The position numbers and the translations under genes are program-made. Source: Pseudomonadales bacterium (GTDB taxonomy: Bacteria > Pseudomonadota > Gammaproteobacteria > Pseudomonadales > JAHRWD01). Taken from it: DNA of 64,000 bases. Positions within the stretch are counted from its first letter, which is position 1. The number at the start of each line of letters is the position of its first letter. Positions 40,593-44,594 of the stretch are shown here, one piece after another. The stretch covers positions 139,666-203,665 of the forward strand of contig JARGPR010000005.1 of NCBI GenBank assembly GCA_029210125.1, written 5' to 3'. The notes under the pieces are model-generated. The model was given only the letters and a program-made list of their open reading frames with translations, ran no database searches and had not been told where the DNA came from.

Positions 40593-41096
40593 TTACGGGA
40601 TTTTATCCAGCACTATAAACGAATAGCCCGGTGTATCTTGTGTTGGTTTTATCTCTTCACGGCTTTGTTCATGCCATTGTTGGCTATCGTAACTGGGAAA
40701 AAAGGCATCACCCTCGAAGTTGGCGTGAACCTGGGTCAGGTACATACGATCTACTTTTGGTAGTAATTGCTGGTAGATGTTTGCACCGCCAATCACCATA
40801 AATTCATCCAGCCCCATCGATTCGGCGGTGGTTTTTGCAAGATCAAGACCCTCTTCAAGGCTGTGTCTGACCTCAACTTCCGGGAACTGAAAATTTTTAT
40901 CCCGGCTGATCACAATATGGGGGCGGCCGGGCAGGGGCTTGCCCAGTGAATCAAAGGTTTTGCGCCCCATCAGTAGCGGTTTGCCCATCGTGATTTTTTT
41001 AAAGTATTTAAGATCCGCAGGAATATACCAGGGCATTTGGTTGTTGATCCCGATGACCCTGTTCTCGGCAACCGCAACAATGAGTGCGCAACGCAT
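40593..41096 (-). CDS. folA: Dihydrofolate reductase
   Basis: NADPH-dependent enzyme making tetrahydrofolate; 167 residues. Family motifs: NRVIGINNQMPWYIPADLKYFK (with the PW active-site region at the N-terminus), MGRKTFDSLGKPLPGR and VIGGANIYQQLLP. A cytosolic housekeeping gene and the usual target of trimethoprim. It is upstream of cti on the same strand and divergent from the DUF1538 unit, with 207 bp between. Confidence 0.95.
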   Translation of the reverse strand: MRCALIVAVAENRVIGINNQMPWYIPADLKYFKKITMGKPLLMGRKTFDSLGKPLPGRPHIVISRDKNFQFPEVEVRHSLEEGLDLAKTTAESMGLDEFMVIGGANIYQQLLPKVDRMYLTQVHANFEGDAFFPSYDSQQWHEQSREEIKPTQDTPGYSFIVLDKIP

Positions 41097-41303
41097 CTTG
41101 AATTCATCCTGTTCAAAAAAGGCAATAGTATACAGTCGTAGAGGTCCATCATACTTGGTTTTTAGGTTGGGCAGTTAGGCTGATTTCATGCAATTTTTGT
41201 GGATATAAGATTGCGGGTTTGCAGTTTTTTAGGCATTGTGAGGAGGTTCATACCTCCCTGAATGTGTATGTATTTATAAGGCTCGCGGTTCTTGAAAAGC
41301 ACA

Positions 41304-42026
41304 ATGTTAAAACTGATGTGGTCGATGCTAAGTAGCGTGCGCGACCTATTGCCTATTGTGCTGGTAATCCTTTTTTTTCAGTTCTTTGTACTGCAGCAGC
41401 CGCTCCCGAATATCGGCCAGTTATTGCTGGGCGTACTGTTTGTAATTATTGGTTTGACCTTCTTTATTCACGGTCTGGAGCAAGGGTTGTTTCCAATTGG
41501 CGAATCGATGGCAAATGCATTTGCCCGTAAGGGCAGCGTATTTTGGCTGGTCACTTTTGCCTTCTGCCTTGGGTTTGGTACCACGGTAGCGGAACCCGCT
41601 CTTATTGCCGTGGCTGCAGAGGCCGCTAGTGTTGCCGCGAATGGTCATATGATCGAATCTACTGATGCCGCGAGATTACAGTATGCAACCGGGTTGCGGC
41701 TTACCGTGGCATTTTCTGTGGGCGTGGCGATTGTGATTGGTGTGGTTCGCATCCTCAAAGGGTGGCCGATTCACTGGATTATTATCGGCGGATATTTGCT
41801 GGTAGTAGTGATGACCATGTTTGCCCCGAAAGAGATTATAGGAATTGCTTATGACTCCGGTGGCGTCACTACATCCACCATTACGGTCCCGCTGGTGACG
41901 GCGCTTGGGGTAGGGTTGGCATCCTCTATTCGTGGCCGAAACCCGATGATTGACGGCTTTGGTCTTATCGCATTTGCCTCCTTAACGCCGATCATATTTG
42001 TGATGGCTTACGGCATGATGATTTGA
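41304..42026 (+). CDS. DUF1538 family membrane protein, first subunit
   Basis: About 240 residues with six to seven hydrophobic helices. Characteristic blocks: [18 protein letters not shown]-like start, [18 protein letters not shown], and [19 protein letters not shown] followed by [20 protein letters not shown]. The same blocks recur in the next gene, so the pair is a duplication that probably assembles as a heteromer. The AEP and DSGGVTT motifs inside helices look like ion- or substrate-binding breaks in a transporter, but no substrate is known. ATG at 41304; a TTG at 41292 is possible. The stop overlaps the next start in TGATG. Confidence 0.82.
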
Positions 42027-42850
42027 TGGATATTTTTGCACAATTACTAGATACCACCCTGGGCACTCTTAAGGATGTATTTCCTATTGCGGTCATTATC
42101 TTCGGCTTTCAGTTTTTCGTAATTCGCAAAAAACCCGCCAATCTTGCCGAGATTTTAATGGGTTTTGTCTGGGTGGTAGTTGGGCTCTCCTTCTTCCTGC
42201 TGGGCCTTGAGTGGTGCCTGTTTCCCCTTGGGAGGTTAATGGCGGAACAATTAACAGACCCAATGTTTATCCACGGTGTTGAATCCGGCCAACAACTAGC
42301 AACCGCAGTTAACACAATTGACTGGCTCGACTACTACTGGGTTTACCTGTTTGCATTTTTGATTGGTTTTAGTACCACCATTGCTGAACCATCATTGATG
42401 GCGGTTGCCATAAAAGCCCATGAGGTTTCCGGTGGTGCTATCGGCGTTTGGGGTTTGCGGATAGCGGTTGCGAATGGTGTTGCAGTCGGTATTTCATTGG
42501 GTTGTTACCGTATTGTGGTGGGTGACCCCATCCACTGGTACATTATCGCCGGCTACATTGTGGTGGTGATTCAGACTACCTTTGCGCCCAAAATGATTAT
42601 CCCGCTGGCATATGATTCTGGCGGTGTTACCACTTCCACTGTGACCGTACCACTGGTTGCAGCCCTGGGTTTGGGGTTGTCGGAAACCGTACCCGGAAGG
42701 AACCCACTTATTGATGGTTTCGGTCTGATCGCGTTTGCCAGTCTGTTTCCTGTTATATCCGTTATGGCCTATGCACAGCTATCTGAAATACGTGCACGTG
42801 GCGCGAGAAAAATGGCTGAAAAGCGATATGAAGAAAAAAATGTAATGTAA
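42026..42850 (+). CDS. DUF1538 family membrane protein, second subunit
   Basis: 274 residues, a diverged copy of the preceding protein. It repeats the blocks DVFPIAVIIFGFQFFVIRKKP, FSTTIAEPSLMAVAIKAH and [19 protein letters not shown] then [17 protein letters not shown]. It has a longer loop near residues 75-100 and a charged C-terminal tail (ARGARKMAEKRYEEKN) on one side of the membrane. The start overlaps the first subunit's stop by one base, so the two are translationally coupled and likely made in equal amounts. A 78-bp gap leads to the PII-like gene. Confidence 0.82.
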   Translation: MDIFAQLLDTTLGTLKDVFPIAVIIFGFQFFVIRKKPANLAEILMGFVWVVVGLSFFLLGLEWCLFPLGRLMAEQLTDPMFIHGVESGQQLATAVNTIDWLDYYWVYLFAFLIGFSTTIAEPSLMAVAIKAHEVSGGAIGVWGLRIAVANGVAVGISLGCYRIVVGDPIHWYIIAGYIVVVIQTTFAPKMIIPLAYDSGGVTTSTVTVPLVAALGLGLSETVPGRNPLIDGFGLIAFASLFPVISVMAYAQLSEIRARGARKMAEKRYEEKNVM

Positions 42851-42928
42851 TGTTAGCGATAGAAGGGTACGTAAACGTGCTCACAACAACGAAATTAGAA
42901 CGGGGCAGCGCGGCTGAGGGGCGATTTT

Positions 42929-43282
42929 ATGCACTTTAAAATGATAATGGTTTTTGTTGAAGATGATAAAACCGACGCAGTAATGGATGCAGCACGTGAT
43001 GCGGGTGCGACCGGAGCTACGGTGATCAGTAATGCGCGGGGAGAGGGTCTTAAAAAAAGTAAAACTTTTTTTGGGCTTTCGCTGGAAACCCAAAGGGACG
43101 TTGTGTTGTTTCTTGTTGAGGAGCACCGCAGCCGCCGTATCCTGGAAGAGATTGGTCGAGTGGGTATGTTTGATGCCAAGCCAGGAACCGGTATCGCTTT
43201 TCAGATTGATGTCGAAGATGCGCTGGGTGTAGCACATCAGGCTCAAAAAATAGTAGAGGATGTTACGGAGATTTCAAAATGA
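42929..43282 (+). CDS. PII-like signalling protein
   Basis: 117 residues with the ferredoxin-like order of PII proteins: an N-terminal strand FKMIMVFVEDDKTDAVMDAA, an ATGATVISNARGEG segment, a short T-loop region and VVLFLVEEHRSRRILEEIGR. The T-loop lacks the tyrosine that GlnD uridylylates in GlnB/GlnK, and the PII signature around it is not conserved, so this is a PII-like protein, not a standard nitrogen regulator. It probably binds a nucleotide and controls the neighbouring membrane proteins (inference). GAGGGG lies eight bases before the ATG and its stop overlaps the CBS gene start by four bases (ATGA). Confidence 0.8.
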   Translation: MHFKMIMVFVEDDKTDAVMDAARDAGATGATVISNARGEGLKKSKTFFGLSLETQRDVVLFLVEEHRSRRILEEIGRVGMFDAKPGTGIAFQIDVEDALGVAHQAQKIVEDVTEISK

Positions 43283-43674
43283 GCAGGAAGGTAATCAAGG
43301 TTAAAGATGTGATGGTGGAGCGCCACCTGGAGCTGGATGGCCTGGCCACCGTTAAAGAAGCGCTAGATCTAATGAAGGAAAATAATGCGGAAATTGTGAT
43401 CGTAAAAAAACGTACTGAACACGATGCATTCGGTATTGTTTTACTGTCGGATATTGTTAAAAAAGTGTTGGCGAAAGACAAGGCGCCGGACCGGGTTAAT
43501 GTCTATGAAATAATGTCTAAGCCCGTGGTTCCTGTCGATGCTGACCTCGATGTACGCTACTGCGCACGACTTTTTGATCGCTTTGGTTTCTCCAATGCGC
43601 CGGTTATTACAAATGGCGAGGTGGTGGGTATTGTCAGCTACAGTGAATTGATCTTCCATGGGTTGGTAGATTAG
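43279..43674 (+). CDS. CBS-domain pair protein
   Basis: 131 residues made of two CBS motifs and nothing else. CBS1 is about residues 8-65 (VKDVMVERHLELDGLATVKEALDLM then FGIVLLSDIVKKVL); CBS2 about 72-131 (VYEIMSKPVVPVDADLDV then GEVVGIVSYSELI). CBS pairs bind adenine nucleotides and regulate channels and enzymes. The ATGA overlap with the PII-like gene means coupled translation, so both sensors likely serve the same DUF1538 complex. Confidence 0.88.
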   Translation: MSRKVIKVKDVMVERHLELDGLATVKEALDLMKENNAEIVIVKKRTEHDAFGIVLLSDIVKKVLAKDKAPDRVNVYEIMSKPVVPVDADLDVRYCARLFDRFGFSNAPVITNGEVVGIVSYSELIFHGLVD

Positions 43675-43721: not shown

Positions 43722-44594
43722 ATGTGGATTAGCTTTACCCTCCTGGCCGCGTTCATGCAGTCCTGGAGAAATACCTTTCAAAACCAGCTCAGTAAACAGG
43801 TCAGTGTAACCGGCGTTACCCTGTCTCGGTTTTTGTTCGCAACACCTATCGCTGGTGGCTATCTGGTTGCGCTGTACTGGTGGAACCCCGGTACTGAACT
43901 TATCCACATTAATCATGAGTTCGCTGGCTACGTTATCGGCGCATCTCTGATGCAAATATTGGCCACTGTGATGATGGTCAAACTGTTCAAGCAAAAAAAT
44001 TTCTCTACCGGCGTTGGTCTAGCCAAAAGCGAAGCGTTAATCGCAGCGGTACTGGGGATTTTATTCTTCGGCACCAGCTTATCTATGCTGGGATGGGTTG
44101 GCGTATTAGTTGGCAGCGTAGCGGTATTTATATTAAGTACCCAGTCGGGTTTACGTGGTGTTTCTCCGGGAACCTTCTTTATTGGTTTAGCCAGCGGTGG
44201 ATCATTTGCGTTGACCTCGCTGTGGGTAAGAGAAGCCAGTATCACCTCTGATCTGCCCGTGCTTTTTCGGGCAGCCTGGGTTTTGTTGTTTGTGCTATCG
44301 ATACAGACGGTTCTTCTTCTTGCTTACATTGTGATTAAGGAGAGCGGTACGCTGGCTGACCTTTTTGCGCGACCGAAACTGCTCTTTCTCACTGGGTTTG
44401 CGGGTTGTGCAGGCTCGCTGGGCTGGTTTACTGCCATGTCTATACAGGCGGTACCCTATGTGAAAACACTGGGTCAGATCGAAATTTTCTTCACTATTTT
44501 TCTGTCAATATTCTGGCTGAAAGAACCAGCAAAAATAAAAGATATTAGTGGGTTGATACTGATCGGGATTTCAGCGGCATTGGTTATTTGGTAG
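43722..44594 (+). CDS. EamA/DMT superfamily transporter
   Basis: 290 residues, ten hydrophobic helices in two EamA repeats (about residues 1-140 and 150-290). Examples are FATPIAGGYLVALYWWNP, GLAKSEALIAAVLGILFFG and the C-terminal GLILIGISAALVIW. Members export metabolites or amino acids; substrate unknown. It follows the CBS gene by 47 bp on the same strand and may belong to the same transcript. Convergent with the YkgJ gene. Confidence 0.82.
   Translation: MWISFTLLAAFMQSWRNTFQNQLSKQVSVTGVTLSRFLFATPIAGGYLVALYWWNPGTELIHINHEFAGYVIGASLMQILATVMMVKLFKQKNFSTGVGLAKSEALIAAVLGILFFGTSLSMLGWVGVLVGSVAVFILSTQSGLRGVSPGTFFIGLASGGSFALTSLWVREASITSDLPVLFRAAWVLLFVLSIQTVLLLAYIVIKESGTLADLFARPKLLFLTGFAGCAGSLGWFTAMSIQAVPYVKTLGQIEIFFTIFLSIFWLKEPAKIKDISGLILIGISAALVIW

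Follow-up and report, generated by a model that had tools for sequence, protein, structure and literature searches.

Conserved linkage of PII-like and CBS genes to DUF1538 genes suggests a PII-gated UmpAB-type cation/proton antiporter

Results

Organization of the DUF1538–PII–CBS Locus

The window analyzed here (the whole stretch of 64,000 nucleotides from a Pseudomonadales bacterium) contains four consecutive genes that encode two homologous DUF1538 membrane proteins, a PII-like protein and a stand-alone CBS protein (table 1). The open frames and the order of the four genes, which had been proposed in an initial sequence-only reading, were confirmed, and both overlaps described there are present in the sequence: the umpB ATG at 42026, which is the start of the gene, sits on the TGA stop of umpA (one base), and the PII-like and CBS genes share an ATGA (43279–43282). 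A spacing of 78 bases separates umpB from the PII-like gene. The DUF1538 domain (PF07556) is present in both adjacent ump genes (41304–42026, E = 3.3e-72; 42023–42850, E = 3e-67), the PII-like protein matches PF00543 (E = 1.4e-10, 41.8 bits with a Pfam cut-off of 25) and the CBS protein matches PF00571 (E = 9.4e-17, 61.5 bits). For umpA, the TTG codon is more likely to be the start than the downstream ATG because homologues begin MKxxx. Immediately upstream of umpA, the opposite strand carries a dihydrofolate-reductase-like gene (40593–41096, named by eye); a tblastn search with this gene gave no match in the DNA examined for the 80 related loci described below.

Table 1. Coordinates of the genes of the DUF1538–PII–CBS locus and its downstream neighbor within the window
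Feature	Position	Strand	Description
umpA	41292..42026	+	DUF1538, putative antiporter subunit A; 244 aa if started at TTG, 240 aa if started at ATG 41304
umpB	42026..42850	+	DUF1538, putative antiporter subunit B; 274 aa; C-terminal tail hydrophilic and positively charged
PII-like gene	42929..43282	+	117 aa; member of a distinct subfamily that lacks Tyr51, Lys90, Arg101 and Arg103
CBS pair gene	43279..43674	+	131 aa; stand-alone Bateman module, ATGA-coupled to the PII-like gene
EamA gene	43722-44594		EamA Pfam domain

Conservation of the Four-Gene Unit

A scan with an UmpA alignment confirmed at least 583 relatives, of which the best 80 were kept as named loci and searched with models built from relatives of the window. 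Among the 80 (the best of at least 583), umpA, umpB and the PII-like gene are found on the same strand in 76 loci and are joined by the CBS gene in 75; the five gaps are contig ends (no PII in L074, L083, L088, and L105, no CBS in L107). The PII-like and CBS genes are thus anything but rare beside DUF1538, and the unit suspected from the window alone is real and strongly conserved. With starts chosen automatically, the two genes overlap by four bases in 57 of the 75 loci and by a single base in 10. The flanking genes vary, the largest cluster of similar downstream genes comprising 9 of 70. An EamA gene does follow 47 bp downstream of the CBS gene, as the sequence-only reading had pointed out, but it did not hold up as a notable neighbor: tblastn (E = 1e-5) found no match in the DNA examined for the 80 related loci, which places EamA outside the conserved unit and rules it out as a fifth member.

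The 80 loci, whose carriers include Vibrio, Colwellia, and Photobacterium, are the closest relatives and by title mostly Gammaproteobacteria, so that breadth is not shown by these 80 alone. In a set of 56 genomes that included the genome of the window, DUF1538 was found in 13 and a PII-like gene adjoins it in all 13. A phylum sample of 397 genomes contained DUF1538 in 88 and a match to the PII-like model in 104, and a comparison of the two lists by eye placed all 88 DUF1538 genomes among the 104. The 16 PII-like genomes free of DUF1538 comprise 13 with scores under 40 bits, interpreted here as canonical PII, and three stronger ones (G076, G156, and G160) with 87–119 bits. Of 100 PII places scoring about 50 bits or higher, 74 have a DUF1538 domain among the matches listed no more than 1.5 kb away. 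Such a PII is found within this distance of 73 of the 76 listed DUF1538 clusters, which do not include lower-scoring DUF1538 places. A hand tally that included the fetched loci gave a linked DUF1538 and PII pair in 85 of the 88 genomes. The PII–CBS pair and DUF1538 are on separate contigs in G135 and G167, G187 has a 3.3-kb PII–CBS contig without DUF1538, and G140 carries two DUF1538 pairs, one without and one with an adjoining PII (L165, L237). PII and CBS are found beside DUF1538 in the longer loci of G022 and G040 (L169, L168), and G005 has no CBS next to its UmpAB.

A further 20 loci from the order were picked by hand (eleven from among the twelve best UmpA matches plus nine more, of which three are fused), including the locus nearest to the UmpA model (428 bits). 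PII was present in all 20 (19 on the same strand) and CBS in 19; in L219, the PII is divergent and CBS was not found in the DNA examined. Judged by gene content and order, the four genes form a real and widely conserved unit.

Alternative Architectures and Mobile Elements

The loci fall into four types: (i) the split umpA-umpB-PII-CBS organization of the window; (ii) fused UmpAB proteins roughly 500 aa in length, accompanied by a more distant PII and CBS (L168, L170, L171, L176, L177, and L222–L224), with the order PII-CBS-UmpAB in L171; (iii) longer fusions, roughly 570–670 aa in size, accompanied by a single PII gene, by two, or by one multi-PII protein of 417–420 aa, beside which CBS was not found; and (iv) plasmid cassettes in which a DUF1538 gene or pair is followed by a P-II gene. 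A total of nine out of 72,556 plasmid records matched. The P-II gene directly follows the DUF1538 gene or pair in seven annotated records, and two unannotated records show the same arrangement by model search only. The annotated records belong to the Alphaproteobacteria (three) and the Clostridia (four, as two record pairs with one species each). In a model search, the PII protein had two PII domains in four of the five Clostridia records and one clear PII domain, at the same protein length, in the fifth (L187). CBS is missing in the plasmid cassettes. The retention of PII across fusions, plasmids, and Clostridia, together with the less constant presence of CBS, points to PII as the core partner and to CBS as an addition.

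A shared operon is no proof of contact, and the four genes might be joined by co-transcription only, as a halo-alkaline stress operon whose two small proteins act elsewhere and never touch UmpAB. We consider this highly improbable, since the linkage survives the fusion of UmpA with UmpB, a doubled PII domain, reordering (L171), transfer to plasmids, and a change of phylum, whereas the flanking genes vary.

Several loci display more elaborate arrangements. The 417–420 aa proteins encoded beside long fused DUF1538 genes (L012:161-1414, L013:167-1429) contain three PII-like domains, of which one is clear and two are weak, and are possibly pseudo-trimers within a single chain. Tandem cassettes were found in L206 and L208 (PII-umpA-umpB-PII-CBS-fused UmpAB-PII-CBS) and in L176 (fused UmpAB-PII-CBS-PII, then a split pair). 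Two mobilizable plasmids of Methylocystis rosea (L185, L192) carry a DUF1538 pair and PII near IS66 elements, and a conjugative Chelativorans plasmid (L184) has a shortened first DUF1538 gene followed by a full second one and PII. Six phage records match UmpB, and the five listed carry no annotation.

Family, Fold, and Topology of UmpA and UmpB

The best NCBIfam models are NF041627 for UmpA (E = 3e-114) and NF041628 for UmpB (E = 7.3e-101), although the equivalog cut-offs were missed by both (380.3 vs. 490 bits for UmpA and 336.8 vs. 500 bits for UmpB); the UmpA cut-off is narrow and was reached by none of 341 genomes of the order. The AlphaFold2 model of UmpA (240-aa form; pLDDT 90.2, pTM 0.83) gave no Foldseek match in the PDB at E ≤ 0.001 (best E = 0.78), and the top hit in a further structural comparison had a Z of 5.2 (4u9l, which we take to be an MgtE entry; 97 residues, rmsd 3.6). 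On the basis of the model, the structure searches point neither to a new fold nor against a known one.

The sequence-only reading had regarded DUF1538 as a family without an assigned function. This is incorrect: UmpAB of Halomonas zhaodongensis was reported in 2017 to work as a heterodimer and to be a Na+(Li+,K+)/H+ antiporter that depends on pH (PMC5484666), with activity assayed in everted vesicles going by a section title, so that DUF1538 is ruled out as a functionless family. The suggestion of a two-subunit transporter, on the other hand, fits the UmpA/UmpB family; the gene observations and the unit stand together with this part of the interpretation, and the lack of a function and the role of EamA do not. 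The Halomonas pair was functional in E. coli from a 4.2-kb clone with four ORFs, of which umpA and umpB are ORF3 and ORF4 and none is described as PII or CBS in those portions (PMC5484666); the main text contains none of the terms PII, P-II, or CBS. This clone indicates that the transporter's own regulators are not required for activity, and genes farther downstream of ORF4 could have escaped notice.

Membrane topology was assessed by setting helix cores by hand from the UmpA model and counting lysine and arginine residues on each side of the membrane. UmpA has an excess of K+R on its N-terminal side in 81 out of 81 sequences (mean 8.2 vs. 2.1) and UmpB on its C-terminal side in 77 out of 77 (mean 9.2 vs. 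4.4). The bias of UmpB is due mostly to its basic tail, which counts against the topology reading: after removal of the tail UmpB is neutral, 29 of the 77 sequences having more K+R on the C side and 24 having more on the N side. No transmembrane-like stretch was detected in the linkers of the 13 natural UmpAB fusions examined (highest mean hydropathy 1.39 over 19 residues). Seven helices per subunit were published for UmpA and UmpB (PMC5484666), and seven are also seen in our own reading of the UmpA model. The charge bias, the linkers of the fusions, and the odd number of helices together suggest an antiparallel arrangement of UmpA and UmpB in the membrane.

A PII-Like Protein with an Altered Ligand Pocket

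The AlphaFold2 model of the PII-like protein (pLDDT 79.9, low in the T-loop) has a PII fold (Z 12.6 with 1ufl, 94 residues aligned at rmsd 2.5), and solved PII chains match the protein by sequence only at E = 0.03 or worse. Residues were compared between 44 aligned homologues and the genome's own two canonical PII proteins; the alignment places a gap of five residues just after the T-loop, at a position that is uncertain in detail. G27, T29, G35, G37, G87, and G89 are kept in 44 out of 44 homologues. Lys90, Arg101, and Arg103, which we take to be ATP phosphate ligands in canonical GlnB/GlnK, are lost in all or nearly all homologues: Lys90 is replaced by Ile (43/44) or Val (1/44), Arg101 by Gly (44/44), and position 103 is Arg in one, Lys in two, and other residues in the rest of the homologues. 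The plain reading of these sequences is a pocket in which the glycine frame is kept and the ligand has changed; since positions 90, 101, and nearly always 103 are altered, the ligand may be other than ATP.

The protein of the window contains no tyrosine at all, in agreement with the earlier claim that the residue modified by GlnD is lacking, and therefore no uridylylated Tyr51 (presumably the uridylylation site of canonical GlnB/GlnK); none of the 44 homologues has a tyrosine at the aligned position or within residues 41–57. The T-loop carries the motif KTFFGL in the window, conserved in 38 (K), 39 (T), 42 (F), 35 (F), 44 (G), and 43 (L) of the 44 sequences. A misplaced canonical nitrogen PII was ruled out by this different residue pattern and by the two canonical PII genes elsewhere in the genome (contig C16), which flank an Amt-like membrane-protein gene (Amt by eye).

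The same genome encodes two more small P-II-type proteins (L181 on C23 and L183 on C26), one of which adjoins a metal P-type-ATPase-like gene and the other an RND-like efflux gene (names by eye). Thirteen PII-like places lack DUF1538 in the fetched DNA (L142–L154, with L152 cut by a contig edge), and one lies 3.6 kb from DUF1538 on the other strand (L162). Among the nine of the thirteen whose neighbors were viewed, several are near acetylglutamate-kinase-like or Dus-like genes (by eye).

The PII-like places without DUF1538 imply that the subfamily may have further targets. Together with the unlinked PII–CBS pairs they allow roles beyond the UmpAB encoded in cis, and control might accordingly run in the opposite direction: the antiporter would act as a receptor that sequesters or controls the PII-like and CBS sensors and relays cation or pH status to other targets. 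Sequestration of GlnK by AmtB is the title of a reference cited in PMC10710835 and offers a precedent. We regard this reading as unlikely, because the pairing of the genes, their conserved order, and the plasmid cassettes of DUF1538 and PII without CBS favor the transporter as the main partner.

The CBS Protein

The nearest solved sequence to the CBS protein is CBS-CP12 (5nmu; E = 1.5e-31 over 123 residues), which belongs to a cyanobacterial family. One Pfam CBS stretch is listed (residues 75–125), and two CBS repeats are supported by the profile, whose alignment with the CBS module of 5nmu covers 123 residues. Nucleotide binding by the CBS protein is predicted.

The resemblance to a cyanobacterial family raises the question of whether UmpAB moves a different substrate in vivo, such as bicarbonate or an organic ion with Na+. 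Exchange of Na+ for H+ would then be a secondary activity, and the two small proteins would follow carbon or energy status in the manner of SbtB–SbtA. The carriers of the unit speak against this, as Vibrio, Colwellia, and Photobacterium are heterotrophs. Although the PII-regulated transporters in PMC10710835 are uptake systems, exchange of Na+, Li+, and K+ for H+ was measured with the Halomonas pair itself (PMC5484666), and we judge another main substrate to be quite improbable.

Discussion

A Proposed Mechanism

The observations are probably best explained by a PII-gated cation/proton antiporter of the UmpAB type with dedicated PII-like and CBS regulators, in which direct docking, the ligands, and the direction of control are inferred. 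The protein families, gene order, coupling, breadth of association, and residue losses come from sequence, and the antiport activity comes from the literature on Halomonas. In this mechanism, the homologous seven-helix subunits UmpA and UmpB, probably antiparallel, would together form the transport unit and move Na+, Li+, and K+ out and H+ in. The PII-like protein, presumably a trimer as other PII proteins are, would dock on the cytoplasmic face at loops 2, 4, and 6 of UmpA and at loop 1 and the basic tail of UmpB, where its conserved KTFFGL T-loop would lock or plug the antiporter. A small-molecule ligand in the altered nucleotide pocket would set the docking affinity, and control would most likely be inhibitory by analogy to GlnK–AmtB and SbtB–SbtA. 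The CBS pair would respond to a further signal, which is probably an adenine nucleotide, and tune either the PII-like protein or the antiporter. The arrangement suggests that metabolic signals directly control the exchanger.

Precedents for such gating are described in a 2023 review (PMC10710835): PII proteins block transporters, AMP-bound SbtB inhibits SbtA, the PII-regulated transporters are uptake systems (Amt, Nrt, Urt, and SbtA), and PII control seems confined to transporters that are able to work as trimers. The last point would predict a trimer of UmpAB heterodimers. A more far-reaching model can be put forward only tentatively: DUF1538/UmpAB proteins could be widespread PII-gated cation/proton antiporters of antiparallel, inverted topology, in which three heterodimers assemble beneath a PII-like trimer that represents a new subfamily, with a non-canonical signal in the pocket and CBS as a second, clade-specific sensor.

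Whereas the transporter family is known, its partnership with PII-like (and CBS) regulators looks new: the literature searched, judged mostly by titles and the beginnings of abstracts and with subscription papers and preprints largely outside the search, gave no paper that points to a link between UmpAB/DUF1538 and PII or CBS. If the proposed reading is true, this would to our knowledge be the first known case in which PII controls an ion/proton antiporter. As carriers of signals PII proteins are widespread, and through a dedicated PII partner the metabolic or energy state of many bacteria would then be coupled to their cytoplasmic pH and salt balance. The UmpAB family, whose 2017 study did not include these regulators, would gain a control mechanism that is directly testable.

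Comparison with Known Systems

The closest characterized relative, UmpAB of Halomonas zhaodongensis, shares with the window two homologous overlapping DUF1538 genes of similar length (254 and 271 aa compared with 240–244 and 274 aa here) and a hydrophilic UmpB tail (PMC5484666). It differs in that both scores of the window's proteins lie under the NCBIfam equivalog cut-offs and in the linked PII-like and CBS genes, which are absent from the 2017 main text. CBS-CP12 (5nmu) provides the nearest solved CBS module, but the CBS protein of the window has no CP12 part and stands alone, coupled by an ATGA to the PII-like gene. In SbtB–SbtA a PII-like protein is likewise paired with a transporter, one that depends on Na+, although SbtB chains match the profile of the PII-like protein only at E of about 0.6. 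The GlnK–AmtB system shares the PII fold and a PII gene that adjoins the gene of its membrane partner. In contrast to GlnK–AmtB, the partner here belongs to an antiporter family rather than being an ammonium channel, the PII-like protein is without Tyr51, Lys90, and Arg101, and the genome has separate canonical PII genes on either side of its Amt-like gene.
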